DNA from: Methylobacterium goesingense
Lineage (GTDB): Bacteria; Pseudomonadota; Alphaproteobacteria; Rhizobiales; Beijerinckiaceae
Direction of reading: 5' to 3'
Length of the DNA stretch: 64,000 bases
Assembly: GCF_022179225.1 (NCBI RefSeq)
Contig: NZ_BPQL01000036.1
Location: forward strand, 1 to 64,000
Position 1 is the stretch's first letter; every line of letters begins with the position of its first letter. Positions 32,780 through 62,628 of the stretch are shown piece by piece. Under the pieces are notes generated by a model. The model ran no database searches, was not told the DNA's origin, and worked only from the letters and a program-made list of their open reading frames with translations. The position numbers and the translations under genes were made by a program.

Positions 32780-32814
32780 GGGGCACTCGTGTCTCGATAC
32801 GCGACGAAGCGCGC

Positions 32815-32829
32815 TTAACCGTCCGTTAA
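32815..32829. promoter_or_regulatory. Perfect CtrA-type box (TTAA-N7-TTAA)
   Basis: TTAA at 32815-32818 and TTAA at 32826-32829 are separated by seven bases, exactly the CtrA consensus of alphaproteobacteria. The flanks extend the symmetry to CTTAA...TTAAG. It sits 36 bases upstream of the membrane-protein gene starting at 32779 and 211 bases upstream of the Kef-type gene on the other strand. It is AT-rich against a GC-rich background, which makes chance occurrence less likely. Confidence 0.5.
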
Positions 32830-33039
32830 GAGGTCGCTTATGCGCGTATTGTGCCGTTTTTGCGCCGCATCGGGCGTGCTGACCAGTACGGCGTCCCCAC
32901 CCAAAGGTCGCAGCCGGCGATTTTCCCCGTCCGATGTGTCTGCGTGGTTGCGCCGGGGCGCCGCCCGCGCCCATGGTCCGGACGAGGAACGCGCCGCGGC
33001 AGGCCCGCGCGATCCCGATCCAGGAGACCTCGCGCACCG

Positions 33040-36937: not shown

Positions 36938-37390
36938 ATGCCGGATCGATTGCCGCAGGGCGGGTTTGCCCCCCTCGTTCCCGAACTCGATGTGCGCGAT
37001 CTCGCTCGCAGCCTCGCCTTCTGGTGTGACGGGCTCGGCTTCACACGCGCCTACGAGCGACCCGAGAACGGCTTCGCCTATCTCGAATGCGAGGGCGCGC
37101 AGGTGATGCTGAACGCGATCAATGGGAACTGGATCACAGCCCCCCTGACGCCGCCGTTCGGACGTGGGATCAATTTCCAGATCGCGGTGCGCTCGACAGC
37201 GCCGATCCTGTCGCGGCTCATTGCGCTAGAATGGCCGCTGTTCCGGCCCTTGCACGAGGCGTGGTACCGTGCCGGTGAGGCGGAGGTCGGGTACCGGCAG
37301 TTCCTCGTGCAGGATCCGGACGGATACCTGCTCCGCTTCGGCGAAAGCCTCGGCCTGCGCCCGCTCAGCCCTGCCGGGCTGGGGTCGTGA
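36938..37390 (+). CDS. VOC/glyoxalase-bleomycin resistance family protein
   Basis: This 150-aa single vicinal-oxygen-chelate domain protein has two beta-alpha-beta-beta-beta modules. It begins with FAPLVPELDVRDLARSLAFW and ends with QFLVQDPDGYLLRFGESLG. Family members bind bleomycin-like drugs or act as metal-dependent lyases or dioxygenases; I cannot say which applies. The ATG at 36938 has no strong ribosome site. Its last 26 bases overlap the 3' end of the ferredoxin gene on the other strand. Confidence 0.88.
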   Translation: MPDRLPQGGFAPLVPELDVRDLARSLAFWCDGLGFTRAYERPENGFAYLECEGAQVMLNAINGNWITAPLTPPFGRGINFQIAVRSTAPILSRLIALEWPLFRPLHEAWYRAGEAEVGYRQFLVQDPDGYLLRFGESLGLRPLSPAGLGS

Positions 37391-37685
37391 CGCTGAGACC
37401 GTCCAGTTCCGGGGTGATGCGGATCTGGCAGCACAGGCGCGAGGTCGGCTTCACGTCTGAGGCGAAGTCGAGCATGTCCTGCTCCATGTCCTCGGCGGGT
37501 CCGACGATCGCGGCCCATTCGCCATCCACGTAGACGTGACAGGTCGCGCAGGCGCAGGCGCCTCCGCACTCGGCATCGATGCCCGGGACGTTGTTGCGGA
37601 TCGCCGCTTCCATCACGGTTGATCCCACGTCGCCCTCCACGGTCCTGGCCGTTCCGGTATGGTCGACGTAGGTGATCTTGGGCAT
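37365..37685 (-). CDS. 2Fe-2S ferredoxin (adrenodoxin/putidaredoxin type)
   Basis: This 106-aa electron carrier has the adrenodoxin-type ligands C40, C46, C49 and C86 (C-x5-C-x2-C, then 36 residues to the fourth). An extra Cys at 44 and another at 85 are not needed for the cluster. It is likely to serve a cytochrome P450, Rieske oxygenase or Fe-S assembly system, none of which is adjacent. CGGAG precedes the ATG. It converges with the VOC gene and overlaps it by 26 bases at the 3' ends. Confidence 0.93.
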   Translation of the reverse strand: MPKITYVDHTGTARTVEGDVGSTVMEAAIRNNVPGIDAECGGACACATCHVYVDGEWAAIVGPAEDMEQDMLDFASDVKPTSRLCCQIRITPELDGLSVTTPARQG

Positions 37686-37943: not shown

Positions 37944-38300
37944 TCAGGCCGGCACGGCCAGCACCGCGAGGGTATCGGTCACGGCGTCGGCCAGGGCCTC
38001 CTCCGCGCCCGCCTCGGCTCCATCGCGCAGCGCATCCTCGATGTCGGCCGCGATGCTGGCGACCCTGTCGGCCCCCACGCCCAGCGCGGAGCCCTTCAGG
38101 GTATGGGCGAGATCGGCGCGTTCGGAGGCGGGACGGTCGCGCGCCAGGATGCCGGGTAGGAGAGTGCGGCACTGCCCCGCGAAGAGGTCGAGCAGCTCGC
38201 GGGCGAGCTCGGCGTCGCCGAAGGTCTGACGATCGAGGTGCGCGCGGTCGAGGAGCGCGGCTTCCCCACTGGGCGCGTCCGGCCCCTGTCTGTCCTGCAA
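37944..38300 (-). CDS. Stand-alone histidine phosphotransfer (HPt) protein
   Basis: This 118-aa helical HPt domain has the phospho-acceptor H66 in AHTLKGSALGVGA. It relays phosphate between hybrid kinases and response regulators; no kinase or receiver gene is adjacent. The frame has no ATG at a sensible place. The start is taken as TTG at 38300, supported by a strong GGGGGAG about seven bases upstream. It is divergent from the giant polar protein gene, so the 275-base spacer probably carries promoters for both. Confidence 0.8.
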   Translation of the reverse strand: MQDRQGPDAPSGEAALLDRAHLDRQTFGDAELARELLDLFAGQCRTLLPGILARDRPASERADLAHTLKGSALGVGADRVASIAADIEDALRDGAEAGAEEALADAVTDTLAVLAVPA

Positions 38301-38575
38301 GACCGTCTCCCCCTTCGCGGTGCCCGTCCCGTCTATCCACAGCGGAGGCGCCGCCTCATTCGCTTCCGCTTAAGCGTTGAGGCATCATGCAGAAAGAGGA
38401 CGGTGCGGTTCGAGCCCTCGGCTTGGTAACCATTCCGTTAAGGTTTTTTGGGCGCAGCGGCAGGCTCGGGTATCCGGGCTCCGTGCCGATGTCTAAAGTT
38501 ACCTGGTTAATTGGTAAAAGTAACCTTGATCGCCGGGCGCGGCCGGCGATCGGGATACGCGTGACGAGGCGTTGA

Positions 38576-41500
38576 ATGGCCACCGAAAAGAAGCTCAAGG
38601 ATCCGGCCGAGGCGGCTCTGTCGGCGATCGAGCAGGCTCTCAACCTCGACGCGTTCGCGCCCGGACCGGACGCGTCCCGCGTCGAGCCGCGCCTGCCGGA
38701 TGTCGCGGACGCCGACCCCCTGCACGACCCGAGCGGCCGCCTCGCCCCGCCCCGCCTCGATCTCGACCAGCCCCTCGCTTCGGACCTGCCGCCGCCGGAC
38801 CGCACCCGCCCCCGCCGCGAGGGCGGCCTTCTCCCGCCCGACCGCTCGATGGTCGCCAACGACGACCGTCAGAACATCGGCATCCTGCAGCAGACGCTGC
38901 GCGTCCGCCCCACGCGCGCGCCCTACCTCATCGCCGCCGCCGCCGGCGCGCTGTGGATTGCCGGGCTCCTCGCCCTGGCCTGGAGCCAGTCCGGGGGAGA
39001 CCTGCGGGGATTCTTTCAAGGGCTCACGGCGATCCAGGGCGCCGTCGCGGCGACCACGCTGGTCGGCCCCGTCGTCCTCTTCGCCATCATGGCGATGCTC
39101 GCCGTGCGTGCCCAGGAGATGCGCATGGTCGCCCGCGCCGTCGGCGAGGTCGCCATCCGCCTGGCGGAGCCCGAGAACTTCTCGACCGATGCCGTGCTGA
39201 CCATGTCGCAGACGGTGCGCCGCGAAGTCGCCGCCGTCGGCGACGGCGTCGAGCGGGCGCTGGCCCGGGCCGGCGAACTGGAGACCCTGGTGCGCGGCGA
39301 GATCGCCACCCTGGAGCGAGCCTATTCCGACAACGAGATCCGCATCCGCTCCCTCGTCGACGAACTCGTCGCGCAGCGCGAATCCATCGTCGCCAATGCC
39401 GAGCGGGTGCGGGGCGCCATCGCGGGCACGCATCAGAGCCTGACGGCGGAACTCGACGGCGCGGCCGAGCGCATCGTCTCGGCGGTCAACGGCGCGGGTG
39501 ACCGGGTCACCGGCGCGCTCGACGCACGCGGCGAGGCCATCACCTCGGCGTTGGGCACACGCGGCGACGCCATCACGGCCGCCCTCGGCGAGGCCGGCGA
39601 CCGGGTGGTCGAACTGGTCTCGGGCCGGGGCGACGATCTCGTCCAGCGCCTCGCCTCCACCAGCGACGGCGTCCGCGACAGCCTCGCCGACGTCGGCACC
39701 GCCCTCACCCAGTCCCTGGAGACCCGCGCCGGCGAAGTCACCCGCGCCTTCGAGCGCACCGGCGGCATCCTCACCAGCACCCTGGCGGAGAATGCCGGGC
39801 AGGTCGCCCGCACCCTGGCGCAGACCGGGGCAGAGGTCATCGAGGCCCTCAACCGCCAGGGCGGCGACGTGCGCCAGACCTTCGAGGATTCCGCGCGCAG
39901 CCTGGAGACCGCGTTCCTCTCCCGCGGTTCGGAACTGACCCAGCAATTCGCCTCCACCGGTGGCGAGATCACCGCGCGCTTCGCCGAGACGGGCGACGCC
40001 CTGCGCCTGCACTTCGCCGAGACGGGCGCCGCGCTGACCCGCGACATCGCTGTGCGCGGTGAGGCGCTCCGCAGCGAACTCGAGACCGCCGGCACCGGCG
40101 TGTCCGACCTCATCGAGACCCGGGGCCGCGAAGCCCAGGCGGGCCTCGCGCTGGCCGCCAGCGGCGTCATCGCGAACTTCAGCGCCCAGGCCGACGACGT
40201 CCGGGAGGAACTCGTCCGCTCCGTCGAGGGCATCGCCACCGGCATCGACGCCCGCGGCGGCGCCCTGGCCGAGCGCATCGAGAGTGTGGCGGCGCGCCTG
40301 CACGACACCATCGCGGTGCGCGGCGCGGAGGTCTCCGACCGTCTTGAGATCCACGGTCGCGAGACCGAGGCTGGCCTGGAACGGGCCGCCGGCACCATCG
40401 TGGAGACTTTCGGCGCCCGCACCGAGGCGCTGCGCGACGCCCTCGTGGGCTCCGTGGAAGACGTCGCCCTGCGCCTCGACCAGAGCGGCGGCGCGCTGGC
40501 CGACCGCATCGACCTCGTGGCCAACCGCCTGCGCGAGACCATCACGATCCAAGGCGGCACCGTCACCGAGCATATCGGCGCCAGTGGCCGTGAGGCCCAG
40601 GCCGCCCTCGCCCTCGCGGTCGGAGCCGTGGTCGAGAGCTTCGGCGGCCGGGCCGTCGCCGTGCGCGACGACCTGATCGGGTCCATGAGCCGGATCACCA
40701 CGGACCTCGACACGCAGGGCGGCGCCCTGGCGGCGCGCATCGAGTCGGTCGCGACGCGCCTCCACGACACCATCGCGGTGCAGGGCACCGGCCTCGAGAG
40801 CAGCCTCGACGCTACCGGAACCCGGATCGGCGACCTCGTTGCCCTGCGCACCCGCGAGGCGAGCGAGACCGTCGACGGTGCCTTGGCGGCGCTGGGACGC
40901 GGCTTCGAGACCCGGGCCATCGACGCCGTCGAGGCCCTGAGCGCCGCCGCCGCCGCCTTGAGCGCGGCCATCGCCGGCCGGACCGCCGAGGCGGCCGACA
41001 CCTTCCGTCGCAGCGCCGAGGAGACCACCGTGGTGCTGGGCGCCAGCACCACCGAGGCGGCGCAATCCCTGCGCCGGGCCTCTGCCAGCGCCACCGGCGA
41101 GCTCGAGGCCCGCACCGTCGAGGCCGTGCAGATCTTCGAGCGCCGGCTCGCGGCGACCGCTTCGGACCTCGCCGCCCGCACGGCCGAGGCCGCCGAACTC
41201 CTGCGCCAGGCCTCCGACGGCGTCGGCGAGAGCGTCGGCGCCCGCGCGGAAGCCTCCATCGAGGCCCTCCGCCGGACCCTCGACGCGGTCAACGCGGAAC
41301 TGTCCCGCCGGGCCGACGAGGCCGCCGGCACCATCACCCGCGCGGCGGACGGCCTCGGCGGCGATCTCACCGCTCGCATCCGCGACGTCGAGACCACCTT
41401 CGGCGACCATGGCCGCACCCTCGGCGACCTCATCGCCGCCCAGGCGAACGAGGCCCAGACCCTGCTGGCCAGCACCGGCCGCGATATCGTCCTCGCGGTG

Positions 41501-44500
41501 ACCGCGCAGGGCGCACGGGTCAACGACCACCTCAACCGCACCGGCGCGACCTTCGCCGACACCACCGACAGCCGGACCCAGGCCCTCGACCGAGTGTTGA
41601 ACGACCGCCTCTCGGCCCTGCAGGACACCCTCGCGCGCGGCGACATCCTGGCCGACCGGATCGCGCGCGACACTGCCGCCCTCACGGATTCGGTCTCGGG
41701 CCGCCTTGAGGAGATGGACCGGGTCATCACGGTGCAGGGCAAGGCGGTCGCCGAGACCCTCGCAGAGCGGACCCGCGAGGCCAGCGCCATGGTGGAGAGC
41801 CAGCTCGGCGCCCTCGAGGAGCGCTCCGTGCGGCGCTCGGCCGAGATCGGCGAGACCTTCGCCAACCTCGTGGCCCAGATCGACGGCCACCTCGGCAGCC
41901 GCGCCACCGCCCTCAACGAAGCCCTGATCGTGCGTACCGCCGAGATGGGACGCGTCATGGTCGAGAGCGGCCGCGACCTCGTACAGACCCTCGACGCCCG
42001 CGCCGACACCATGGCGCTCGATATCGCGGCGCGCAGCGCCAGCCTCGGCGACACCCTCGGCGAGCGCACCGCCGAGATCGGCCGCCGCCTCGACGAACAG
42101 ACCCTGGAGCTCGCCCGCCGCCTCGACGAGGGAGCCGGGCGCTTCGATGCGGGCGTTCTCGGCCGCCTGGAGGCGATCGGGACCGCACTGGAGGAGCGCA
42201 GCCGCCTCATCGAGGAATCCTTCGGCTCCCAGGCCTTCGAGGCGATCCGCCTCATCGAGAGCCGCACCCGCGCGGTGGACGAGGATCTCGCCAACCGCAC
42301 CCGCGAACTCGTGGACATGATCGTGGACCGGACCGGCGGCGCGAACGAGGCCCTGGACGGCCAGGCGCGCGCGATCCGCGAGGCCTTCGCGGCCCGCGCC
42401 GACGAACTCGTGCGCCTCATCGACGAGCGCACGGCGGCCATGGGCCACGAGCTCGACGAGAAGGGCCGGGCCGTGTTCGGCGCCCTCGGGGGCCGCATCA
42501 CCGAGCTCGCCCGCCTGTTCGACCTCGGCAGCAGCTCGCTCGGCAAAGTGCTGGAACAGCGCGGCGAATCCATCCTCGGCCGCCTGCGCGAGATGGTCAC
42601 GGAAGCCGACCGCCAGCTCGGCGAGGGCGAGGGCCGCCTCGGCAACACCCTCGACCGCCGCACAGCGGATATCAGCTCCCTTCTCGACGAGGGCGTGCGC
42701 ACCGTCCACCAGCTCCTCGACGACCGCACGGGCGAGATCCGCGCCCTGCTCGACACCCATGCGGGCGTCGTCAGCGCCGACCTCAAGGACCGGATCGCAC
42801 CCCTGCACGAGACCCTCGACCAGCGCGGACGCGCCCTGGTCGACACCATCGCGGCGAGCCTCGGCAGCGCCACGGAGGCGGTGGAGGCCCGCACGCGGGC
42901 CCTGGCAAGCCTCTTCGACGAGCGCATCGACCATCTCGACGAGGTCGTCGAGCGGCGCGGCAGCGGCCTGTCCGACGCGATGGAGGCGCGCACCCGCGCG
43001 CTGACCGAAACCCTCGACGAGCGCCTGAACGCCCTCGGCGAAATCGTGGACCAGCGCGGCGCCCGCCTCGTCGAGACCGTGGAGGACCGTACCCGCGCCC
43101 TGACCAACACCTTCGACCAGCGCGTCGGCATCCTCGACGAGCTGGTGGACCGGCGCGGCGAGCGCCTGGCCGAGACCGTGGACCATCAGGCCCGGCGCCT
43201 CGCCGAGACTTTCGACCAGCGCGTCGGAGCGCTCGACGAGATCGTGGAGCGTCGCAGCGGCGAGATGGCCGAGGCGGTGGATGCCCGCACCCGGGCCCTG
43301 GCACGCCTGTTCGATCACCGCATCGGTGTCCTCGGTCAACTCGTGGACGGCCGTGGCGCCCAGCTGACCGACGCCCTCGACAGCCGCACCGAAGCCCTTG
43401 GCGTCCTGTTCGATCAGCGCATCGGCGCCCTCGACGAGATCGTCGACGGCCGTGGCGCACAGCTCGGCCAGACCCTGGAAGCGCGGTCCCAAGGCCTGCG
43501 CGCCCTGTTCGACGAGATCCTGTCGGCCCTCGATGGCCTGATCGATAGCCGTGCCGACGCCCTGACCGACCGGGTCGATGCCCGGACGCAGCGCCTCGTC
43601 GCGCTGTTCGACGAGCGCCTCGGCGCCCTCGACCAGCTCGTCGATCACCGCACCGGCACTCTCTCGGACGAGGTCGATGCCCGGGCCCAGGCCCTGGTCT
43701 CACTCATCGACACCCGGGTCGGCGCCCTCGACCGCGTGGTCGACGAGCGCGCGGGTGCGCTGCACAGCCAGGCCGAGACGGCCTCGCGCGCCATGGTCTC
43801 GCTGTTCGAAGATCGCTTGCGCGGCCTCGACGGCTTCCTCGACGACCGCGCGGGCAACCTCGCCGCCGAGACCGAGGCGCGCACCCGCGCCTTGGCGGCG
43901 ATCTTCGACGAGCGCCTCGCCGCCCTCGAAGCCCTCGTGGACGGCCGGGTCGGCACCCTGGCGGACGGCGTCGCCGAACGGACCCGCAACCTCGTCTCGG
44001 TCTTCGACGCCCGCATCCAGGGACTGGACGCGGCCATCGACGGACGCGCGGACCACATGGCCGAGCAGACCGAAGCCCGCACCCGTGCCCTGGTGGGGAT
44101 CTTCGACGAGCGGCTTTCCGCCCTCGAAGCCCTGGTGGACGGCCGCGCCGGCAGCCTCGCCGACCGCGTCGCCGAGCGGACCCAGTCCCTCGTGACGACC
44201 TTCGACGAGCGCCTGCGCGCCCTCGACGATGCCGTCGACCACCGGTCCGGTGCGCTGGCGGCCCAGACCGAGACGCAGGTCGCGGCCCTGACGGGCTTCT
44301 TCGACGAGCGCCTCGGCAACCTCGAGCGCCTCGTGGAGGGCCGCACCGGCACGCTCACGGAGCATGTCGAGGCCCGCACTCAGGACCTGGCGACGGTCTT
44401 CGACCAGCGCCTGGCAGCCCTCGACAGCCTCGTCGAGGCGCGGGCCTCGGCCTTCGCCCGCACGATCGACACGCAGGGAACCGCCCTCGCGGAAGCCGTG

Positions 44501-46870
44501 GACGGCCGCGCGGCGGCATTCACCAGCCGCATAGACAACCGCATGAAGGTGTTCGCCACCCTCGTGGCCTCGCGCGGCGATGCCCTCGCCACGGCCTTCG
44601 ATGACCGTCAGGACGCCTATGCGGCCCTGGTCGACGAGCGCACCGCCACGATGCTGTCGGCCTTCGATGAGCGTGTCGGCCGCCACGCGGCCCTGGCCGA
44701 GGCCCATGCCCAGGCCCTCGCCGCCGCCCTCGACCAGCGCAACGAGGCCGTGGCCGCGCTCATCGACAGTCGCAACGGCGCGATGACCGAAGCCTTCGAT
44801 CGTCGCTCGACGGCGCTGGCCAGCCTCGTCGAGGCGCGCGGTCAGTCCCTCGCCCGCCGCCTCGCGGAGAGCGCGGAGACGATCACCCGCGCCATCGAGG
44901 AGCGCGGTGGCACCCTCGTGGAGACCCTGGACGGGCGCGGCGACGCCGTGGTGACCGCGCTGACCGACCAGTCCGAGCGCCTGCGGGCGATCGTGGAGGG
45001 ACCGGCGGCGCAGCTCGTCGAGGCCCTGGCCCTGCGTGGCGACGCCATAGAGCAGGCCCTGCGCGAGAGCGGAGCACCCCTGGTCGAGGCGATCCAGGCG
45101 CGGACCGAGGCCCTTGCGGCCCAGTCCCGCGCCTCGGCGGAAGCGCTGCTCTCCGTCATCGACGGCGGCGCGTCCCGCGCCATCGCCTCGCTCTCCAACG
45201 CCAACGAGCAGATGAGCCGTGAGCTCGTCTCGGTCGTGGAGCGCATGGACGGCGCCAACGACGCCCTGCGCAGCCTGCTCTCGGGGACGGGTGAAAATCT
45301 CGGCCGCATCGAGGCGGGCCTGTCCGGGCGGATCGCCGAAATCCGCGACGCGCTCTCGGCCGTCACCAGCGAGACGGCGCGGGCCAGCGCCGGGGTCGCC
45401 GAGCAGGTCGACCTTCTGAAGGGCGTGGCCGAGGGCGCCCTGCGGGATGCCGCCGACCTCGCGGCCTCCCTGGACGAGCGCGGCCGTACCCTGGGCGAAC
45501 TCGGCCGCAGCCATGCCGGCACCCTCACGCAGGCCGCCGGCCAGCTCGAGGGCGCGGCCAGCCAGCTCGAGGGCGCCGAGGGACGCCTGTCCGAGCGCCT
45601 GGCGACCCGTGAGGCCGCCATCGCCGACGTGCTGTCGCGCATCGAGGAGCGTTCCGGCACCCTGGAGGCACAGACCGCCCGCTTCGACGCGACGATCGCC
45701 GAGACACTGCGGGCGGCCGAGGAGCGGGCCCGTGCCCTCGGAACCACCCTGTCGGAGACCGCCGCCGGTGCCGGCGCCAGCGTCGCCCAGGCCTTCGAAG
45801 GTCTGCGCGCCGGGGCCGACAGCGAGAGTACCCGGACCGCCGAGGCGGTGCGGGCCGCGATCGAGGCCGCGTCGCAGCAGATGTCGGCGGTTCTCGAATC
45901 CGCCTCGGGCCGCTTCGGCGACTCGGTCTCGACCCTGCGCGAGATGGCGGCCGAGATCCGGCGCGAACTCGACGCCACCCGGGCCGATCTGCAGCGCGGC
46001 GTGTTGGAGATCCCCCGGGAGACCCAGGACGCCACCGGCGAAATGCGCCGCGTGGTCTCCGAGCAGCTGAAGGCGCTGGGCGAGCTCTCGACCCTGGTCC
46101 AGCGCTCGGGTCGAGCCGTCGACGCCGTGGCACCCCAGATCTCGGAGCCCCGGCGCCCCGAGCCCGCGAAGGCGGCGCCCGCCCCGGTCAAGGCCAACGC
46201 GGTCGTCAACCCTGCGGCCAAGCCCGCGCCTCAGGCGAAGACCGCCCCGGAGGTCAAGCCCGCGACCGAGGCGAAGCCCGCCGCATCGCCGGCCCGCCCG
46301 GGCCAGTCGATCAACGTGGTCTCGGCGCCCGCCGCCACCCGCAACGCCGAGGTGCTGCGTCCGGGCAACGGCGCCCGTGCCGACCAGCGCGGCGGCGACA
46401 ACCGCGGCTGGCTCTCGGACCTGCTCACCCGAGCCTCCCTCGACGACGAGCCGGAGGCCGTGCCGAGCAATCGGGCGCCCGCCCAGGCCCCTGACGACGC
46501 GCAGCGGAACGCGGCCGAGCGGGGCCGTACCGCCCTGGAGACGATCTCCAGCGATATCGCCAAGATGATCGATCACCAGACGGCGGTGGATCTGTGGACG
46601 CGCTATCGCCGGGGCGAGCCGAACCTCTTCGATCGCCGGATCTACACCGCGCAGGGTCGCCAGACCTTCGAGGAGGTCCGTCGCCGCTACGCTGCCGACG
46701 CCGATTTCCGCCGCACGGTGGACCGCTACGTCGGCGAGTTCGAACGCCTGCTCGGCGATGTCTCGAAGAACGACCGCGACTCCTCGCGGGCGGATGCCTA
46801 CCTCACCTCCGAGACGGGCAAGGTCTACACGATGCTGGCCCATGCCAGCGGCCGCTTCGACGGCGCTTAA
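38576..46870 (+). CDS. Giant apolipoprotein-like coiled-coil protein, probable growth-pole ring protein (GPR/RgsE, TipN-like)
   Basis: This 2764-aa protein has an acidic, Pro-rich N-terminus (1 to about 110) and two membrane helices (about 114-136 and 152-176). About 2200 residues of Ala/Arg/Asp/Glu-rich helix with 11-residue-based repeats follow (three 77-residue units, then twenty 33-residue units). An Ala/Pro/Lys-rich linker leads to a conserved C-terminal domain (from about 2670, DLWTRYRRGEPNLFDRRIYT, ending near YLTSETGKVYTMLAHASGRF). This layout matches GPR of Agrobacterium and RgsE of Sinorhizobium, which organise unipolar growth, and resembles Caulobacter TipN. The identity is inferred from architecture. 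GAGG precedes the ATG. A terminator follows. Confidence 0.85.
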   Translation: MATEKKLKDPAEAALSAIEQALNLDAFAPGPDASRVEPRLPDVADADPLHDPSGRLAPPRLDLDQPLASDLPPPDRTRPRREGGLLPPDRSMVANDDRQNIGILQQTLRVRPTRAPYLIAAAAGALWIAGLLALAWSQSGGDLRGFFQGLTAIQGAVAATTLVGPVVLFAIMAMLAVRAQEMRMVARAVGEVAIRLAEPENFSTDAVLTMSQTVRREVAAVGDGVERALARAGELETLVRGEIATLERAYSDNEIRIRSLVDELVAQRESIVANAERVRGAIAGTHQSLTAELDGAAERIVSAVNGAGDRVTGALDARGEAITSALGTRGDAITAALGEAGDRVVELVSGRGDDLVQRLASTSDGVRDSLADVGTALTQSLETRAGEVTRAFERTGGILTSTLAENAGQVARTLAQTGAEVIEALNRQGGDVRQTFEDSARSLETAFLSRGSELTQQFASTGGEITARFAETGDALRLHFAETGAALTRDIAVRGEALRSELETAGTGVSDLIETRGREAQAGLALAASGVIANFSAQADDVREELVRSVEGIATGIDARGGALAERIESVAARLHDTIAVRGAEVSDRLEIHGRETEAGLERAAGTIVETFGARTEALRDALVGSVEDVALRLDQSGGALADRIDLVANRLRETITIQGGTVTEHIGASGREAQAALALAVGAVVESFGGRAVAVRDDLIGSMSRITTDLDTQGGALAARIESVATRLHDTIAVQGTGLESSLDATGTRIGDLVALRTREASETVDGALAALGRGFETRAIDAVEALSAAAAALSAAIAGRTAEAADTFRRSAEETTVVLGASTTEAAQSLRRASASATGELEARTVEAVQIFERRLAATASDLAARTAEAAELLRQASDGVGESVGARAEASIEALRRTLDAVNAELSRRADEAAGTITRAADGLGGDLTARIRDVETTFGDHGRTLGDLIAAQANEAQTLLASTGRDIVLAVTAQGARVNDHLNRTGATFADTTDSRTQALDRVLNDRLSALQDTLARGDILADRIARDTAALTDSVSGRLEEMDRVITVQGKAVAETLAERTREASAMVESQLGALEERSVRRSAEIGETFANLVAQIDGHLGSRATALNEALIVRTAEMGRVMVESGRDLVQTLDARADTMALDIAARSASLGDTLGERTAEIGRRLDEQTLELARRLDEGAGRFDAGVLGRLEAIGTALEERSRLIEESFGSQAFEAIRLIESRTRAVDEDLANRTRELVDMIVDRTGGANEALDGQARAIREAFAARADELVRLIDERTAAMGHELDEKGRAVFGALGGRITELARLFDLGSSSLGKVLEQRGESILGRLREMVTEADRQLGEGEGRLGNTLDRRTADISSLLDEGVRTVHQLLDDRTGEIRALLDTHAGVVSADLKDRIAPLHETLDQRGRALVDTIAASLGSATEAVEARTRALASLFDERIDHLDEVVERRGSGLSDAMEARTRALTETLDERLNALGEIVDQRGARLVETVEDRTRALTNTFDQRVGILDELVDRRGERLAETVDHQARRLAETFDQRVGALDEIVERRSGEMAEAVDARTRALARLFDHRIGVLGQLVDGRGAQLTDALDSRTEALGVLFDQRIGALDEIVDGRGAQLGQTLEARSQGLRALFDEILSALDGLIDSRADALTDRVDARTQRLVALFDERLGALDQLVDHRTGTLSDEVDARAQALVSLIDTRVGALDRVVDERAGALHSQAETASRAMVSLFEDRLRGLDGFLDDRAGNLAAETEARTRALAAIFDERLAALEALVDGRVGTLADGVAERTRNLVSVFDARIQGLDAAIDGRADHMAEQTEARTRALVGIFDERLSALEALVDGRAGSLADRVAERTQSLVTTFDERLRALDDAVDHRSGALAAQTETQVAALTGFFDERLGNLERLVEGRTGTLTEHVEARTQDLATVFDQRLAALDSLVEARASAFARTIDTQGTALAEAVDGRAAAFTSRIDNRMKVFATLVASRGDALATAFDDRQDAYAALVDERTATMLSAFDERVGRHAALAEAHAQALAAALDQRNEAVAALIDSRNGAMTEAFDRRSTALASLVEARGQSLARRLAESAETITRAIEERGGTLVETLDGRGDAVVTALTDQSERLRAIVEGPAAQLVEALALRGDAIEQALRESGAPLVEAIQARTEALAAQSRASAEALLSVIDGGASRAIASLSNANEQMSRELVSVVERMDGANDALRSLLSGTGENLGRIEAGLSGRIAEIRDALSAVTSETARASAGVAEQVDLLKGVAEGALRDAADLAASLDERGRTLGELGRSHAGTLTQAAGQLEGAASQLEGAEGRLSERLATREAAIADVLSRIEERSGTLEAQTARFDATIAETLRAAEERARALGTTLSETAAGAGASVAQAFEGLRAGADSESTRTAEAVRAAIEAASQQMSAVLESASGRFGDSVSTLREMAAEIRRELDATRADLQRGVLEIPRETQDATGEMRRVVSEQLKALGELSTLVQRSGRAVDAVAPQISEPRRPEPAKAAPAPVKANAVVNPAAKPAPQAKTAPEVKPATEAKPAASPARPGQSINVVSAPAATRNAEVLRPGNGARADQRGGDNRGWLSDLLTRASLDDEPEAVPSNRAPAQAPDDAQRNAAERGRTALETISSDIAKMIDHQTAVDLWTRYRRGEPNLFDRRIYTAQGRQTFEEVRRRYAADADFRRTVDRYVGEFERLLGDVSKNDRDSSRADAYLTSETGKVYTMLAHASGRFDGA
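40124..40816 (+). repeat. Three tandem 231-bp (77-residue) repeats within the giant coiled-coil gene
   Basis: Three consecutive units begin with GREAQAG, GRETEAG and GREAQAA (residues about 517, 594 and 671). Each ends just before the next Gly-Arg-Glu. Within each unit the order is a hydrophobic Ala helix, RxxLVxSVE-like, GGALAxRI, then DTIAV/ETITI. 77 residues is seven 11-residue turns, the apolipoprotein-type period. Confidence 0.85.
42884..44863 (+). repeat. Twenty tandem 99-bp (33-residue) repeats within the giant coiled-coil gene
   Basis: From residue 1437 the protein is an uninterrupted series of 20 units of exactly 33 residues. The consensus is roughly EARTRALxxxFDERLxALD followed by xLVDxRxGxLxxxV. 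No unit has an insertion or deletion. The last four units (17-20) drift from the consensus. DNA identity between units is only partial, so these are old, selected protein repeats and not a recent slippage array. Confidence 0.9.
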
Positions 46871-46910
46871 GGCGCGCGCCGTACGACCCGAGCACCATCG
46901 ACGAAAGCAA

Positions 46911-46938
46911 CCCCGCCTCCCCCCGAGGCGGGGTTTTT
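46911..46938 (+). terminator. Rho-independent terminator after the giant gene
   Basis: A 9-bp perfect GC stem (46911-46919 with 46925-46933), loop of five C, then TTTTT. It lies 40 bases after the stop and 20 bases before the convergent DUF1489 gene end. Confidence 0.9.
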
Positions 46939-46958
46939 CATGGGCGGTGTTCGGTCGC

Positions 46959-47411
46959 TTAGATGAGCCCGAGGCCGGCGAGCTCGCGGCGCAGGGATTC
47001 CGGCATCTCGGCGAGGCCCCCGGCGGTGCGGGCGTCAAGATCGGCCGGGGCGTCGTCCGCCTTCAGGTAGCGCCAGCCCTGGAAGGGCCGGCACGGGCGT
47101 GGCGAGACCGCTGTGACGACGGGGTCGAGGATCAGGCGGCAGCGGCCGATGCCGTCCGCATCCGTGAAGGGCGTGATCGTTCGGATGGATTGCCGGCAGA
47201 GTAGCGTGCCCTTGATCACCCAGTAGATCGAGCCCTGGCCGGCGATATCACCGGCGCGCGTCGGGACCATGCGGGTGGTGTGCACGGGAGCGGGATCGCG
47301 GCCCGCGCGGCGTGCCTCGTCGGCATTGCGGGCGATGCGCTCCTCCAGCTCGCCGATGCTGGCCGGACCGACGCAGAGCTTCAGGAGATGGAGGGGCGCA
47401 CGAGCGGACAT
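46959..47411 (-). CDS. DUF1489 family protein
   Basis: This 150-aa cytosolic protein of the alphaproteobacterial DUF1489 family has the typical opening LHLLKLCVGPASIGELE. A conserved WVIKGTLLCRQ is followed by PCRPFQGWRYLK. Its function is unknown. AAGG precedes the ATG. It lies 77 bases downstream of the CheZ-like gene on the same strand and converges on the giant gene's terminator. Confidence 0.88.
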   Translation of the reverse strand: MSARAPLHLLKLCVGPASIGELEERIARNADEARRAGRDPAPVHTTRMVPTRAGDIAGQGSIYWVIKGTLLCRQSIRTITPFTDADGIGRCRLILDPVVTAVSPRPCRPFQGWRYLKADDAPADLDARTAGGLAEMPESLRRELAGLGLI

Positions 47412-47488: not shown

Positions 47489-48706
47489 TCAGGAGAACAG
47501 GGCGCGCTTCTCGTCGTCCGAAAGGGCGTCGATCTCGGCGAACGCGCTGGCGATGTCGGTCTGAGCCGGGGCGGCGGATGCGGCCATCTTGAGGGCGACC
47601 GGGTCCGCCATTGGGGCGGGCTCGGAATCCTCATCCGGTTCGTGGGTGGTCGCTTCCGCCGCAGGGGCCGGAACCGGCGCTTCGGCGGACGGGGCGGGAT
47701 CAAACCCGGACTCGGGATCGTCGGTCTCGGCGTGGGCGGCGACTGTTTCCCGTGCGAGATCGTCGGTCGGCGTCGCGACGACATCGCCTGTCGGTTCCGT
47801 CAGGATATCGTGGAGCGGCTCTGCGTCCGTTTCCGGGACTTCCACAGCCGGCGCCTCCGCCTCGGTGAAGTCGGCCGGCTCGGGCTCGGGCTCGACTCGG
47901 GGCGTTGCGGCGGATGCAACCGGCGGGACCGCGTCCGTGGCTTCGAGAAACACGATGTCGTCGTCGACGGAGAGGTGCTCCGGCAGCTTCGAGACCGCGA
48001 CGGGGGTATCGGCCTCGCCCGAGGACACCTCCCCGTCGATGTAGCGGTCCACGTCGCTCTGGCAGAGGTCGGTGGGCAGGGGCTCGCCCTGGGATTCGCC
48101 GGGTGCGGGAGGGACCGTTTCCAGAGCATCGCCCCAGATCGCCATCATGGCGGCGAGGCGCTCCTCGAGGTAGCGCAGGGTGTGTATGATCCGCGCCGTG
48201 CGCTGCGCCGTCAGATCCTGGAAGGAGCAGGCGGTGTAGATGCTGGTGGCGCGCCGGTCGAGTTCGTCGCAGATCTCGGCGTCCGAGCCGGATTCGCGCA
48301 GGATCCAGGCAGCCTCCTGCACGTGCTCGGCGGAGCTGAGGATCTCGGAGGTGGCGCGCTCGGTGGAGCGCACGATGGCGTCGAGGGCGGCGGAGGCGCC
48401 CCCGAGGCGGCTCTGGTCGTGATCCGGAGCGCTGATCGCGGCGATTTCCGCCTTCGTCCGGGCGATGGCGTGGGCCATGTCCATCAGATCGCCGCGCACC
48501 CGCCCGATCTGGTCCTGTTCCCGCTCGCCGGTGACGGCCTTCTCCAGCCGTGCGATCGCATCGAGCAGGATGCCGGTGTCGTGCGCGCGGTTGCGGCGCA
48601 GATACGCGTCGAGGAACCAGCGCCCCCGCTCGCTCTCGCTCATCGCGGCCTCGATGCGATCGTATTCCGACACGTCGATCGACGTCAGCGATTGGGAACT
48701 CGACAT
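47489..48706 (-). CDS. CheZ-like protein phosphatase domain protein
   Basis: Residues 30-195 of this 405-aa protein form a long helical hairpin. Its motif ACSFQDLTAQRTARII corresponds to the CheZ active site, with D164 and Q168 in the DxxxQ positions. CheZ-type enzymes speed dephosphorylation of CheY-like receivers. The C-terminal 200 residues are acidic and Pro/Ala-rich, mostly disordered, ending with a short helix (IDALSDDEKRALFS) that resembles a receiver-docking tail. No chemotaxis genes are adjacent. I chose the ATG at 48706, with AAGGA ten bases upstream. A CtrA-like box lies 79 bases upstream. Confidence 0.8.
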   Translation of the reverse strand: MSSSQSLTSIDVSEYDRIEAAMSESERGRWFLDAYLRRNRAHDTGILLDAIARLEKAVTGEREQDQIGRVRGDLMDMAHAIARTKAEIAAISAPDHDQSRLGGASAALDAIVRSTERATSEILSSAEHVQEAAWILRESGSDAEICDELDRRATSIYTACSFQDLTAQRTARIIHTLRYLEERLAAMMAIWGDALETVPPAPGESQGEPLPTDLCQSDVDRYIDGEVSSGEADTPVAVSKLPEHLSVDDDIVFLEATDAVPPVASAATPRVEPEPEPADFTEAEAPAVEVPETDAEPLHDILTEPTGDVVATPTDDLARETVAAHAETDDPESGFDPAPSAEAPVPAPAAEATTHEPDEDSEPAPMADPVALKMAASAAPAQTDIASAFAEIDALSDDEKRALFS

Positions 48707-48784
48707 CACGCACACGTCCTTGGCGAGGCTGCGGCCGGCAAGCGATCGCTGGTTTCCAAGCGACCGGAGATTGACAGCATCACT

Positions 48785-48799
48785 TTAACGCCGGCTTTA
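48785..48799. promoter_or_regulatory. Near-consensus CtrA-type box upstream of the CheZ-like gene
   Basis: TTAA (48785-48788), seven bases, then TTTA (48796-48799) differs from TTAA-N7-TTAA at one base. It lies in the 149-base divergent spacer between the CheZ-like gene and the MFS gene. Confidence 0.3.
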
Positions 48800-48855
48800 C
48801 GCTGCCATCGCCTGGGACGATCGATTCACAGGCCTCCTCATCATCGCCCGGTCGC

Positions 48856-50088: not shown

Positions 50089-50118
50089 CCCTCCGGTAAC
50101 CGTGATCGGTGATGCGTG

Positions 50119-51285
50119 ATGGGGATATGGAGCGCGGCCCCTTTGGCTAGAGCCGAGACCAGGACCCACCCCGACACCGCCGACGCCGCCCTCCTCGAGG
50201 GCGGGCGCGTCGGGCTGTCCGGGCGTTGGACCGCCGACCAGGGCGCGGCCGTGGAGGACGCCGCCGCGCGCATTGCCGGCAGCGCCGCCGGCGCGCCGAT
50301 CCTCGTCGACCTCAGCCAGGTCAGCCGCCTCGACACCCTGGGCGCCTGGGTGCTGGAGCGGACCCGCGCCGAGATCGAGGCCGCCGGGGGGCGCCTCGCC
50401 TATGCGGGGGCCGCCCCCGAGCACCGTATCCTGCTCAGCGAGGTGAAGCTGCGCGCGGCCGAGCCGGCGCCGGCGCCGCGCGGGCGCCTCTACGGTTTCC
50501 TGGAGGATCTGGGCAAGCGGGTGGTCGGCGCGAAATCCGACCTCGTCACGGGCCTGGCCTTCTTCGGCGAGGTCGTCACCGCCTGCATCCGGGTCGCGGC
50601 CCGGCCCGGCACCTTCCGGGGCACCGCCCTGGTCAACCAGATCGAGCAGGTCGCCTTCCGGGGCGTGCCGATCATCGTGCTGATCTCGTTCCTCGTCGGC
50701 GGCATCGTCGCCCAGCAGGGCATCTTCCAGCTCCAGCGCTTCGGCGCCCAGAGCTTCGTGGTGAACCTGATCGGCCTTCTCATCCTGCGCGAGCTCGGCG
50801 TGCTCCTCACGTCGATCATGGTGGCGGGCCGCTCCGGCTCGGCCTTCACCGCCGAGATCGGCTCCATGCGCATGCGCGAGGAGGTCGATGCCCTACGCGT
50901 CATGGGCCTCGACCCGATCGAGATCCTGATCGTGCCGCGCATCCTCGCCCTGGTGATCGGCCTGCCGATCCTTACCTTCCTGGCCTCCCTGGCGGCGCTC
51001 GCGGGCGGCGGCCTCACGGCCTCCCTCTACGGCGGCATGACGGTGGACGCCTTCCTGGCCCGGCTCCAGGCGGCGGTGTCGCTCCACCATGTCGCCGTCG
51101 GCCTGATCAAGGCGCCCTTCATGGCGCTGATCATCGGGATCATCGCGACGATCGAGGGTTTCGCGGTGGAAGGTTCGGCCGAGTCGCTCGGGCGCCACGT
51201 CACGGCCTCAGTTGTGAAGTCAATCTTCATGGTCATCGTCCTGGACGGATTGTTCGCCGTCTTCTTCGCCGCCATCGATTTCTGA
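50119..51285 (+). CDS. MlaE-type ABC transporter permease with an N-terminal STAS domain
   Basis: This 388-aa protein joins an MlaB-like STAS domain (about 20-115, with ILVDLSQVSRLDTLGAWVL) to an MlaE permease domain (about 130-388). The permease domain contains VGGIVAQQGIFQLQRFGA and GRSGSAFTAEIGSMRMREEVDALRVMG split over the conserved cytoplasmic loop. It is the membrane part of a phospholipid importer/exporter that keeps outer-membrane asymmetry. I chose the ATG at 50119; a GTG one codon earlier is possible. It heads an operon with MlaF-, MlaD- and lipoprotein-type genes. Confidence 0.92.
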   Translation: MGIWSAAPLARAETRTHPDTADAALLEGGRVGLSGRWTADQGAAVEDAAARIAGSAAGAPILVDLSQVSRLDTLGAWVLERTRAEIEAAGGRLAYAGAAPEHRILLSEVKLRAAEPAPAPRGRLYGFLEDLGKRVVGAKSDLVTGLAFFGEVVTACIRVAARPGTFRGTALVNQIEQVAFRGVPIIVLISFLVGGIVAQQGIFQLQRFGAQSFVVNLIGLLILRELGVLLTSIMVAGRSGSAFTAEIGSMRMREEVDALRVMGLDPIEILIVPRILALVIGLPILTFLASLAALAGGGLTASLYGGMTVDAFLARLQAAVSLHHVAVGLIKAPFMALIIGIIATIEGFAVEGSAESLGRHVTASVVKSIFMVIVLDGLFAVFFAAIDF

Positions 51286-51304
51286 GGCGCCCGTTCCGAC
51301 AACC

Positions 51305-52162
51305 ATGACAACTCTGTCCGCCATACCAATTCATGCCGCGCAGCAAGCGCCTGTCCATGGCGAGACGGCACGCGCGGGCGCGCCTGAGCCGATCATCCGC
51401 GTGCGCGACCTTGTCGTCGGGTTCGGCTCGAAGATCGTGATGAAGGGGCTCAACCTCGACATCCGGCGCGGCGAGATCCTGGGCTTCGTCGGGCCGTCCG
51501 GCCAGGGCAAGTCGGTGCTGACACGGACCATCCTGGGGCTCGTGCCCAAACGCGCGGGTACCATCGAGGTGTTCGGCGAGGACGTGGATGGCCTCACCGT
51601 GGCGCGCCGCCGCCAGATCGAGCAGCGCTGGGGCGTGCTGTTCCAGCAGGGCGCGTTGTTCTCGGCGCTCACCGTCAAGCAGAACATTCAGATGCCGATG
51701 CGCGAGCACCTGAACCTGTCCGAGCGCCTGCTCGACGAGTTCGCGCGCCTGAAGATCGAGATGGTCGGCTTGAAGCCGGATGCCGCCGACAAGCTGCCCT
51801 CGGAGCTCTCCGGCGGCATGATCAAGCGCGCGGCGCTGGCCCGGTCCCTGGCCCTCGACCCCGAGATCCTGTTCCTCGACGAGCCGACCTCCGGTCTCGA
51901 TCCGATCGGCGCCGGCGAATTCGACGACCTCGTGGCGACCCTCAAGCAAACGCTGGGCCTGACCGTGTTCATGGTCACCCACGACCTCGACAGCCTCTAC
52001 ACCGCCTGCGACCGCATCGCCGCGCTCGGCGACGGTCAGATCATCGCGCAGGGCACCATCGCGGAGATGCTCGAGAGCGACCATCCCTGGCTGCGCTCCT
52101 ACTTCCACGGCAAGCGCGGCCGCGCGGTCGTCCCGCAGGGAGGCCGCCATGCACAGGCCTGA
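51305..52162 (+). CDS. MlaF-type ABC transporter ATP-binding protein
   Basis: This 285-aa ATPase has Walker A GPSGQGKS at 63-70, signature LSGGMIKRAALARSLAL and Walker B ILFLDEPTSGLDP. The D-loop and H-loop read VMVTHDLDSL. It energises lipid transport by the MlaE-type permease encoded 19 bases upstream. An N-terminal extension of about 25 residues before the first strand is not conserved. The stop lies 59 bases before the MCE protein gene. Confidence 0.94.
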   Translation: MTTLSAIPIHAAQQAPVHGETARAGAPEPIIRVRDLVVGFGSKIVMKGLNLDIRRGEILGFVGPSGQGKSVLTRTILGLVPKRAGTIEVFGEDVDGLTVARRRQIEQRWGVLFQQGALFSALTVKQNIQMPMREHLNLSERLLDEFARLKIEMVGLKPDAADKLPSELSGGMIKRAALARSLALDPEILFLDEPTSGLDPIGAGEFDDLVATLKQTLGLTVFMVTHDLDSLYTACDRIAALGDGQIIAQGTIAEMLESDHPWLRSYFHGKRGRAVVPQGGRHAQA

Positions 52163-52221
52163 CGCGCTGGGTGCGGCCTCGCACCGCGCGGTCCCCATCC
52201 CGCCAAGGTATCGCTGATCCC

Positions 52222-53304
52222 ATGGAGACTCGTGCCAACTACGCCCTCATCGGCGCCTTTACCCTTGCGGTCCTTGTGGCGGCCTTCGGCTTCGTGTTCT
52301 GGCTCCAGGGCGGCTCGCGCAGCCAGGTCCGGCAGGCCGTGCGCATCGTGTTCTCGGGCAGCGTCGGTGGCCTCGCCAAGGGATCGACGGTGGCCTTCAA
52401 CGGTATCAAGGTCGGCGAGGTGATGGACGTGCGCCTGCTGCCGCAGGACCCGCGCCGCGTCGTCGCCGTGGTCGAGGTCGAGCGGACCACGCCCCTGCGC
52501 GCCGACACCCGCGCGCGCCTCGATTCGGCGATGCTGACCGGCGTCTCCACGATCTCGCTCTCGGGCGGCAACGCGGACTCGCCCGTCCTGCCCCCGGGCT
52601 CGGGCGACCAGATGCCGACGATCTTCGCGGATTCCTCCGATATCCAGGACATGATGGCGGCCGCCAAGCAGATCGCCCAGCGGGCCGACGACGTGCTTCA
52701 GCGGCTCGACAAGGTGGTGGCCGGAAACGAGGGGGCGATTACGCGCACGCTCGCCAACGTGGAGTCGTTCTCGAAGACCCTCGCCGAGGCGGGCCCGGCG
52801 GTGAGCGGCCTCGTCAAGGCCATCGACGGGCAGAAGCTCAACCGCGTCATCGACAATGCCGACCGCTTCTCCGGAGCGCTGGCGGCCGGGAGTCCCGACA
52901 TCGAGGGGGCGCTCAAGGACGCGCGTGCGCTGGCCGCCAAGCTCAACGCCTCGGCCGACCGGGTCGATTCCGTGCTGAAGGGCGCCGAGGGCTTCCTCGG
53001 CTCGGCCTCGGGCTCGGCCGGCACCAGCACCTTCACGGAGGTGCGCGAGGCCGCGATCTCGGTCCGCGACGCCGGCAAGGCGTTCCGGACCCTCAGCGAA
53101 AACCTCGACAAGCGCACCTCGAACATCGCCACCAGCTTCAACCGCCTCAGCGGCACCGGCCGCCGCGAGGTCGAAGCCCTGTCGACGGACGGGCAGCGCA
53201 CGCTCAACACCCTAAACCGGACGGTCAAGAGCCTGGAGCGGGACCCCTCCCAGGTGATCTTCGGCGGCAAGCCGTCGTTGCCGGAATACAACGGTGGGCG
53301 CTGA
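52222..53304 (+). CDS. MlaD-family MCE domain protein
   Basis: This 360-aa periplasmic lipid-binding protein has a single N-terminal membrane anchor (YALIGAFTLAVLVAAFGFVFWL). One MCE domain (about 35-120, including GSVGGLAKGSTVAFNGIKVG) is followed by a long helical C-terminal region (about 140-330) that could form a tunnel or bridge. I chose the ATG at 52222, which gives the family opening METRANYALIG. No MlaC gene is present; a lipoprotein gene follows instead. Confidence 0.93.
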   Translation: METRANYALIGAFTLAVLVAAFGFVFWLQGGSRSQVRQAVRIVFSGSVGGLAKGSTVAFNGIKVGEVMDVRLLPQDPRRVVAVVEVERTTPLRADTRARLDSAMLTGVSTISLSGGNADSPVLPPGSGDQMPTIFADSSDIQDMMAAAKQIAQRADDVLQRLDKVVAGNEGAITRTLANVESFSKTLAEAGPAVSGLVKAIDGQKLNRVIDNADRFSGALAAGSPDIEGALKDARALAAKLNASADRVDSVLKGAEGFLGSASGSAGTSTFTEVREAAISVRDAGKAFRTLSENLDKRTSNIATSFNRLSGTGRREVEALSTDGQRTLNTLNRTVKSLERDPSQVIFGGKPSLPEYNGGR

Positions 53305-53407
53305 ACTGTGGTCCACCGGGCCATGCGTGCTGCGGCGCACGGCACCAATCGCCCGGGCCGGTAGTTTACGGCCACGCTGCGCGTCGGCGCGGCGACGGGT
53401 TTCCGGA

Positions 53408-54001
53408 ATGCGTATGTCTCACTACAGAACGGCCCCCGCGCTCGTCGCGATGCTCCTCGCGGCCACCCTCGGCGGCTGCGGCGGCGGCGCGGTGCCGCTG
53501 ACCTTCGATCTGGCCGCCCTGCCGCCCAACGGCCGGGTCGGCACCTCCGCGCGCTCGTTCAGCGTGGCCGAGCCCGTGGGCATCCAGCCCTTCGAGGCGG
53601 ACCGCATCATCGTGCGTGAGCCGGGCGGAGCACTGTCCTTCCTCGGCGGTGGCCAATGGGCCGATCGCCTGCCGCGCTTGATCCAGACGCGGCTGATCCA
53701 GAGCCTCGAAAACTCGGGTCGCCTGAAATCCGTGAGCCGCCCCGGCGACAAGGTGGTCTCCGAGTTCCAGCTCATCAGCGAGATCCGCGCCTTCGACATC
53801 GCGGCCGGCACCGGCGAGGCGGTGGTCGACATCTCCGCCAAGATCATCGCCGAAGGCACCGGCAAGGTCGTGGCCGCCCGCATCTTCACCGCACGGGTAC
53901 CGGTGCCGAAGGTCGATGCGGGGACCGCCGCCGTGGGCCTCGACGCGGCGCTGGCCCGCGTGCTCGCCGATATGGTGGCCTGGGTGAATTCGGGGCGCTG
54001 A
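53408..54001 (+). CDS. ABC-type transport auxiliary lipoprotein (PqiC/ABC_trans_aux type)
   Basis: This 197-aa lipoprotein has a signal peptide with lipobox LGGC (Cys about 24 residues in). A domain of the ABC_trans_aux type follows (LTFDLAALPP..., with WADRLPRLIQTRLIQSLENSG). It probably links the inner-membrane MCE complex to the outer membrane. The ATG at 53408 is followed six bases later by another in-frame ATG; either may be used. It ends five bases before the convergent XRE-cupin gene. Confidence 0.88.
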   Translation: MRMSHYRTAPALVAMLLAATLGGCGGGAVPLTFDLAALPPNGRVGTSARSFSVAEPVGIQPFEADRIIVREPGGALSFLGGGQWADRLPRLIQTRLIQSLENSGRLKSVSRPGDKVVSEFQLISEIRAFDIAAGTGEAVVDISAKIIAEGTGKVVAARIFTARVPVPKVDAGTAAVGLDAALARVLADMVAWVNSGR

Positions 54002-61847: not shown

Positions 61848-61965
61848 GGAATAGAGCTTGGCTTTGAAGGGCGAGCGTTTACGTCTTGGGCAGACTTCGC
61901 GCCGTAACGTGCGTCGAGTTTTCCTAGTCCGCTCCACAGATTTCGTTCGCCTTCGAGAGGCTCTG

Positions 61966-62628
61966 ATGCGCCGTTTCGCCCCCGCCCTGACCGGGCTCCT
62001 CTGCGCGCTGGGCGCATGGGCTTCGCCCGTGGCCGCCTACGAGATCGATCCACTCACACGCCAGCCACTCGACAACGCCCTGGTCATCCGGGTTCGCCCG
62101 CAGGCCACGCCGGTGGCCCTGCCCACCGCCAACGCCTCGCTGCCCGCCGATCCGATGGCGCCGTCCTCCGCCGTGCCTCAGATGTCGGCGATCCAGCGCG
62201 AGGAAGTCGCCTATGCGGGCGGCTATGCGGCCGGCACCATCGTGGTCTCCACCGCCGAGCGCCGCCTGTACTACGTGCTGGGTGACGGCAAGGCCCTGCG
62301 CTACGGCGTCGGCGTCGGCCGCCCGGGCTTCACCTGGGGCGGCGTGCAGACCATTACGATGAAGCGCGAGTGGCCCGATTGGCGTCCCCCGGCCGAGATG
62401 CTGCGCCGCCGCCCCGACCTGCCGCGCTTCATGAAGGGCGGCATCGAGAACCCCCTCGGCGCCCGCGCCATGTATCTCGGCAACTCGATCTACCGTATCC
62501 ACGGCTCGAACGAGCCGGAGACCATCGGCACCGCCGTGTCCTCGGGCTGCATCCGCATGACCAACGACGACGTGGCCGACCTCTACACCCGCGCCAAGGT
62601 CGGCGCGAAGGTCATCGTCCAGCGCTGA
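61966..62628 (+). CDS. L,D-transpeptidase (YkuD domain)
   Basis: This 220-aa exported protein has a signal peptide of about 24 residues (hydrophobic core ALTGLLCALGAWA, ending PVAAYE). The YkuD domain (about 90-220) carries catalytic H179 in YRIHGSNEPETIG and C195 in VSSGCIRM. Such enzymes form 3-3 peptidoglycan cross-links or attach proteins to the wall, and in polar-growing Hyphomicrobiales they are linked to pole growth. GAGAGG precedes the ATG at 61966. A terminator follows the stop. Confidence 0.93.
   Translation: MRRFAPALTGLLCALGAWASPVAAYEIDPLTRQPLDNALVIRVRPQATPVALPTANASLPADPMAPSSAVPQMSAIQREEVAYAGGYAAGTIVVSTAERRLYYVLGDGKALRYGVGVGRPGFTWGGVQTITMKREWPDWRPPAEMLRRRPDLPRFMKGGIENPLGARAMYLGNSIYRIHGSNEPETIGTAVSSGCIRMTNDDVADLYTRAKVGAKVIVQR

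Follow-up and report, generated by a model that had tools for sequence, protein, structure and literature searches.

Among the closest described systems, GPR of Agrobacterium tumefaciens (Atu1348) is reported to have 2115 aa, two membrane helices near the N-terminus, a 1700 aa helix and apolipoprotein-like domains, and was placed in the PF01442 family (PMC8262873). RgsE is its homologue, and RgsE homologues are reported from all Rhizobiales families (PMC7327166). GPR/RgsE is described at the growing pole (PMC8262873, PMC7327166, PMC9938171), including the new pole in Brucella abortus for RgsE (PMC9938171), and rod shape is lost when the protein is removed or depleted (PMC8262873, PMC7327166). 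The C-terminus of GPR is reported to be essential in Agrobacterium (PMC8262873), and Rgs proteins and MreB have been suggested to be mutually exclusive (PMC7327166). TipN, a polar protein of 882 aa with disordered termini, has been called analogous to GPR (PMC13170164). In PMC8262873, the terms hendecad, heptad, residue repeat and HPt are absent.

The gpr gene and its product

The window, that is the whole stretch of DNA analysed, comprises 64,000 nucleotides of Methylobacterium goesingense (Beijerinckiaceae, Rhizobiales, Alphaproteobacteria), and genus, family, order and class below are those of this organism. Its ORF at 38576-46870 is a well-supported GPR/RgsE orthologue, filed through family-wide orthology and compared with GPR, RgsE and TipN by description. 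The gene and its parts are:

38576..46870, + strand: gene filed as gpr/rgsE orthologue, 2764 aa, ATG start, no internal stop; PF01442, E = 5.6e-81
38927..39100, + strand: two transmembrane helices, residues 118-136 and 157-175 (Kyte-Doolittle, 19-residue window)
39380..45232, + strand: hendecad rod, residues 269-2219 (1951 aa), with a one-residue slip at 1019/1020 (11-state register model)
42833..44455, + strand: 33-residue super-repeat in the rod, about residues 1420-1960 (lag identity)
46532..46867, + strand: conserved C-terminal domain, ~112 aa, predicted all-helical with low confidence

The product runs from ~117 N-terminal residues through two membrane helices, the rod and a Pro-rich linker to the small C-terminal domain; the Pro-rich stretch C-terminal to the rod is seen directly in the translation, and the long helix is rich in Ala, Leu, Arg and Glu. 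PF01442 matches in 17 stretches with 271 bits against a cut-off of 90, and PF07464 (ApoLp-III; E = 2.7e-12) also exceeds its Pfam cut-off. A GPR/RgsE protein was taken to have at least ~1700 residues of PF01442-type helix, two N-terminal transmembrane helices and a C-terminal domain conserved in single copy across the order. Here the rod has 1951 residues, the helices lie at the residues listed above, and the domain has one copy at home and a match in 190 of 199 order genomes; from a single-copy orthologue with two helices, long rod, linker and C-terminal domain, we infer GPR/RgsE. At least two N-terminal hydrophobic segments were found in 35 of the 39 order relatives read, and the bulk of the protein would be cytoplasmic, by analogy with what is described for RgsE (PMC7327166).

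An earlier note, made from the DNA letters, had described a 2764-aa ORF with two N-terminal membrane helices, an 11-residue-based helix and a conserved C-terminal domain, and each of these parts was recovered: the frame is complete on the + strand, the two hydrophobic segments lie at residues 118-136 and 157-175, the helix has an 11/3 periodicity over residues 231-2440 with a register over 269-2219, and the domain is single-copy and widespread. The note was also right that the protein is longer than its Agrobacterium counterpart (2764 versus 2115 aa), but this length is ordinary for the genus, in which the whole genes read (n = 23, this one included) span 2033-3561 aa. Its proposal of a GPR/RgsE protein is well supported: the architecture and the PF01442 match speak for it, as do the conserved single-copy C-terminal domain and the lack of MreB. 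Its interpretation overall is partly supported. Two antisense ORFs overlie gpr (38507-43648, − strand, 1713 aa; 43700-47038, − strand, 1112 aa) and are most likely by-products of G+C-rich repeats. The best explanation overall, to which we assign a probability of about 0.82, is a GPR/RgsE orthologue with a hendecad coiled-coil rod that would act as a polar scaffold, an HPt phosphorelay being its least certain step.

The HPt neighbour and the promoter region

The other features of the window near gpr are:

37365..37685, − strand: 2Fe-2S ferredoxin, third gene of the conserved block (PF00111)
37944..38300, − strand: divergent single-domain HPt gene, 118 aa, phospho-acceptor His at residue 66 (AHTLKG); PF01627, E = 6.6e-11
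38425..38443, no strand assigned: promoter footprint GGTAACCATTCCGTTAAGG, with GTAACCAT and TTAA unchanged in 23 aligned genus members
38466..38474, + strand: second conserved promoter element TCGGGTATC, with GGGTATC unchanged in 23 genus members
47489-48715, − strand: CheZ-like gene; PF04344, E = 2.8e-4, 21.3 bits, below the Pfam cut-off of 30.7
48785-48800: CtrA-like box TTAACGCCGGCTTTAC before the CheZ-like gene, one mismatch
50116..54001, + strand: MlaE/MlaF/MlaD-type lipid transporter and auxiliary lipoprotein, near gpr in many relatives
61858-62628: L,D-transpeptidase YkuD, E = 1.7e-23, about 15 kb from gpr

The divergent HPt gene to which the earlier note drew attention is confirmed by PF01627, and its neighbourhood proved far better supported than the sequence alone could show. 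A search over the 199 order genomes gave an HPt match in 158, and positions were counted from 150 of these, one place per genome, with gene starts taken from frame lengths and therefore approximate. Among the matches listed, 145 HPt places are in genomes with a GPR match, 129 of them with both genes on one contig; the HPt gene is divergent and within 3 kb of the gpr start in 118 of the 129 (median 444 bases), and the divergent pair is present in 39 of the 40 families with both on one contig. The other 11 among the matches listed comprise six HPt genes on the same strand as gpr at distances of about 0.2 to 4.2 kb, three divergent ones with overrunning frames and two divergent ones whose gaps measure 3.2 and 7.2 kb. 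A further set, referred to as the Rhizobiaceae set, consists of 80 loci kept from a scan with a Rhizobiaceae sequence, with titles including Mesorhizobium, Hoeflea, Pararhizobium, Phyllobacterium and Brucella pseudogrignonensis; Agrobacterium and Sinorhizobium are not represented among these 80. In this set, the ferredoxin gene is present in 72 of 72 loci and HPt lies beside gpr in 66 of 72; it was not found there in L135, L137, L142, L152, L158 and L160, in L142 lying about 5 kb off. The ferredoxin gene is kept without a detected HPt in L152 (Brucella pseudogrignonensis), L158 and L160 (Falsochrobactrum). In several families HPt was thus not detected next to gpr. Because it was not found there in these six loci, and 45 GPR-bearing order genomes have no HPt among the matches listed, it cannot be obligatory. 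Across 160 loci, the phospho-acceptor His is present in all 126 HPt matches. Outside the order, HPt and Mla genes lie near the domain in 5 of 16 loci and Mla genes alone in one more.

A rival account, to which we would give slightly less than an even chance, is that HPt is a bystander: gpr, hpt and the ferredoxin gene would have no functional link, and their proximity would be a relic of old gene order or the result of a shared promoter region. Neighbour counts in 40 order loci (ferredoxin 37, HPt 32, MlaF 16, VWA 7, DUF1489 3, glyoxalase 2, NhaP 2), which are lower bounds for the far genes because the flanks differ in length, bear on it in two ways. Ferredoxin, with no obvious polar role, belongs to the same block (37/40 in the order and 72/72 in the Rhizobiaceae set), and the six Rhizobiaceae-set loci without HPt beside gpr are also in agreement with a bystander; on the other hand, other near neighbours have been lost over the same distances, with DUF1489 remaining in 3 and VWA in 7 of the 40 loci as against 32 for HPt, and the His is invariably kept. 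The stronger proposal, that gpr and hpt have formed a functional pair since ancient times, in which a CtrA-controlled phosphorelay gates the assembly or release of a polar ring of quantised-length hendecad rulers, is tentative and on balance doubtful; it would draw on a divergent block kept in 39 of 40 order families (among the matches listed) and in some neighbouring class groups, which the lineages of L152 and L160, among others, would have lost. The conserved HPt neighbour suggests a candidate, testable control of growth. No HPt-GPR link was found in the literature searched, which is not all print.

The CtrA consensus is TTAA-N7-TTAAC. In the window, within the footprint GGTAACCATTCCGTTAAGG, which is almost unchanged in the promoter alignment (23 genus members, window included), the CtrA-like site at 38426-38441 has two mismatches to it, a level at which 15 sites were seen in the window and 5 are expected by chance, so that the site is weak on its own. 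Among order loci, a CtrA-like site with at most one mismatch precedes gpr within 500 bases in 8 of 14, representing six families, against 0.3 expected from shuffles; this statistic covers the 14 of 39 loci with a recognisable N-terminal motif, three of which belong to the window's genus and have a site with two mismatches. For CtrA and the gpr gene, the literature searched yielded no paper beyond PMC9022086. Elsewhere in the window, a one-mismatch CtrA-like site readable on either strand (32814-32830) lies just before a Na+/H+ exchanger gene at 32851.

The earlier note had also drawn a CheZ-like gene with a CtrA-like box and an L,D-transpeptidase 15 kb away into a possible polarity system. The gene, a sub-cut-off PF04344 match, and its one-mismatch box are present, but a CheZ-like match occurs in just 11 of 40 order loci, where its place varies; the YkuD gene lies at the distance described. 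Both genes are probably incidental to gpr. The MlaEFD-type transporter near gpr in relatives (L044-L065; L081-L160) is mostly on the opposite strand, and in the window it is on gpr's strand.

The 11-residue register of the rod

The hydrophobic period of the rod is 3.663 residues (~11/3), and periodicity at 11/3, taken over residues 231-2440, has a power of 63, compared with at most 11 in 200 shuffles. An 11-state register model, trained on 13 members including the window's, assigned a register to residues 269-1019 and, after one slip of a single residue, to 1020-2219, which amounts to ~177 consecutive 11-residue units; on 5 shuffled rods, the model found no block. Hendecad positions 1 and 8 are hydrophobic at frequencies of 0.95 and 0.92 (charged 0.01), and at position 5 Gly, Ala, Thr and Ser predominate (charged 0.04), giving core positions 1, 5 and 8 with a 4-3-4 spacing. 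The 1951 residues contain 3 Pro, 5 Lys, 223 Arg and no Cys or Trp, with a net charge of -106. Within the super-repeat, identity is 0.45 at lag 33, 0.28 at lag 11 and ~0.05-0.06 at lags 10, 12 and 34, and when the 33-residue array was searched by sequence against the PDB, no match was better than E = 0.011. In order relatives, the period is 3.656-3.666 in 19 of 20 loci (L041-L060; L056 has 3.624), and 11 of the 20 have an unbroken register block of more than 1000 residues. Some relatives keep the register less strictly, the longest blocks being 160, 374 and 386 residues in L056, L058 and L080 as against 1200 in the window; this counts against the best explanation.

Length differences in the rod mostly follow the same unit. 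Indels in multiples of 11 make up 21 of 23 in the rod versus 1 of 34 outside it in eight genus pairs sharing no protein, 18 of 19 versus 0 of 34 between the window and its seven nearest relatives, and 60 of 71 versus 0 of 101 in 21 overlapping pairs; even the closest relative read, at 95% identity, has a rod that differs by 33 residues. Since aligners tend to place gaps in phase with repeats, the alignment-free register is the stronger evidence. At a larger scale, L227 (residues 808-1810) and L228 (residues 923-1506) have ~358-residue tandem blocks in the rod, apparently three copies versus two, atop the 11-residue units. An NCBIfam search matched no TipN or GPR model; ZorA, SMC and SpiroCoCo were far below their cut-offs and were set aside, their matches reflecting coiled coil.

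Exchangeable apolipoproteins have Lys-rich, Pro-punctuated 22-residue amphipathic helices. It is improbable, in our estimation, that the rod is such an apolipoprotein-like helix, lying on or moving phospholipid in step with the Mla-type transporter. The Apolipoprotein A1/A4/E family PF01442 is above cut-off, as is PF07464; MlaF lies within 4.5 kb downstream of gpr in 54 of 64 Rhizobiaceae-set loci, Mla genes are near 6 of the 16 loci outside the order (L195-L199, L206), and a lipid role for GPR is argued in PMC8262873. However, each 11-residue unit has two positions that are strongly hydrophobic and one with mostly small residues, which makes a narrow stripe, the rod is a polyanion, and Pro-punctuated, Lys-rich 22-residue helices are not what its 3 Pro and 5 Lys provide, so that a coiled coil suits it better than a lipid-binding helix. 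Judged by its residue pattern, the rod looks like a hendecad coiled coil tolerating length change mainly by whole units, and the apolipoprotein label would then reflect a shared 11-residue periodicity.

The C-terminal domain, MreB and comparison with known systems

The C-terminal 118 aa have one copy in the home genome, and each of the 190 order genomes with the domain has one match. Within the genus, 96 of 99 genomes have it (G446, G448 and G530 gave no match), and the profile matches 90 of 240 class genomes, 3 of these being members of the same family as the window. Identity between the window's domain and the 36 aligned loci of the Rhizobiaceae set is 55-64%. Because its AlphaFold2 model has a mean pLDDT of 63.8 and Foldseek gave no PDB match at E <= 0.001, no fold is claimed. 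Of the nine order genomes that gave no match, HPt-centred regions were read in four (L191-L194, families f37 and f23), and each has a 1663-1732 aa frame beside HPt and ferredoxin with a rod period of 3.647-3.666 and no significant match to the domain; the remaining five are 67-90% complete. Because the C-terminus is reported as essential in Agrobacterium (PMC8262873), the L191-L194 genes offer natural tests of its role; that these four do without a recognisable domain weighs against the best explanation.

MreB is, to judge from profile matches, absent from the home genome, whose best PF06723 (MreB) match has E = 9.1e-15; MreC gives a partial match below cut-off, and PopZ is present. Above 100 bits, PF06723 matches 24 of 199 order genomes, two of these matches being fragments, and 23 of the 24 have the GPR C-terminal domain; their frames measure 452-1498 aa, compared with a median of 1826 aa in 166 order genomes outside this set (189 of 190 frames used, one cut frame left out and some others cut by contig ends). 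The difference has p = 1.6e-6 by genome (23 versus 166) and p = 0.005 by family (10 versus 40), and it is not claimed as causal because it is confounded by ancestry. The idea that rod length followed MreB loss was rejected, the tree giving just 2 independent pairs on well-supported branches.

Our working model is that the scaffold would sit at the growing pole with its anchor in the inner membrane. There the hydrophobic and small residues that make up the hendecad stripe may hold rods together in a coiled coil, nearly straight or right-handed and ~290 nm long (at 0.15 nm per residue). Rod length would change by whole 11- or 33-residue units, because, as proposed, only those keep the stripe continuous. 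The C-terminal domain may join rods or dock the wall-synthesis machinery, and growth would thereby be confined to a pole in an MreB-less cell. As its least certain step, the HPt protein would probably take part in a phosphorelay expressed with, or acting on, the GPR scaffold.

The protein is thus of a known kind, and what is new here is the near-unbroken 11-residue register, the conserved HPt neighbour and the CtrA-like boxes in six families. For the control of GPR and the working of its giant helix, the conserved HPt is a concrete candidate regulator, and the long register, with length changing in steps of 11, recasts "apolipoprotein-like" as a testable structural prediction, a hendecad coiled coil. 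Natural comparisons of what the parts do are offered by the shorter GPR genes of genomes that have MreB and by GPR-like genes that lack the C-terminal domain.

A TipN-type polarity landmark in place of a growth-ring scaffold is very unlikely: although the domain's spread through the class and the 715-1030 aa frames with one or two membrane segments and coiled coil in 11 of 16 loci outside the order, near TipN in size (882 aa; PMC13170164), speak for it, the window's protein is three times longer, comes from a genome without MreB and has a rod of 11/3 period, as against a rod period of 3.56-3.60 in 14 of those 16 loci. Compared by description, TipN of Caulobacter crescentus is much shorter (882 versus 2764 aa); domains related to the C-terminal one of GPR occur throughout the class. 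The suggested exclusion between Rgs proteins and MreB (PMC7327166) contrasts with the 23 of 24 MreB-bearing order genomes that carry the GPR C-terminal domain here. RgsE of Sinorhizobium meliloti (SMc00190, 2089 aa) is described with the same architecture (PMC7327166). GPR Atu1348, compared by description and not by residues, is shorter than the window's protein (2115 versus 2764 aa), and it likewise has two N-terminal membrane helices, a ~1700 aa PF01442-type helix, a Pro-rich region near the C-terminus and a C-terminal region needed for function (PMC8262873).
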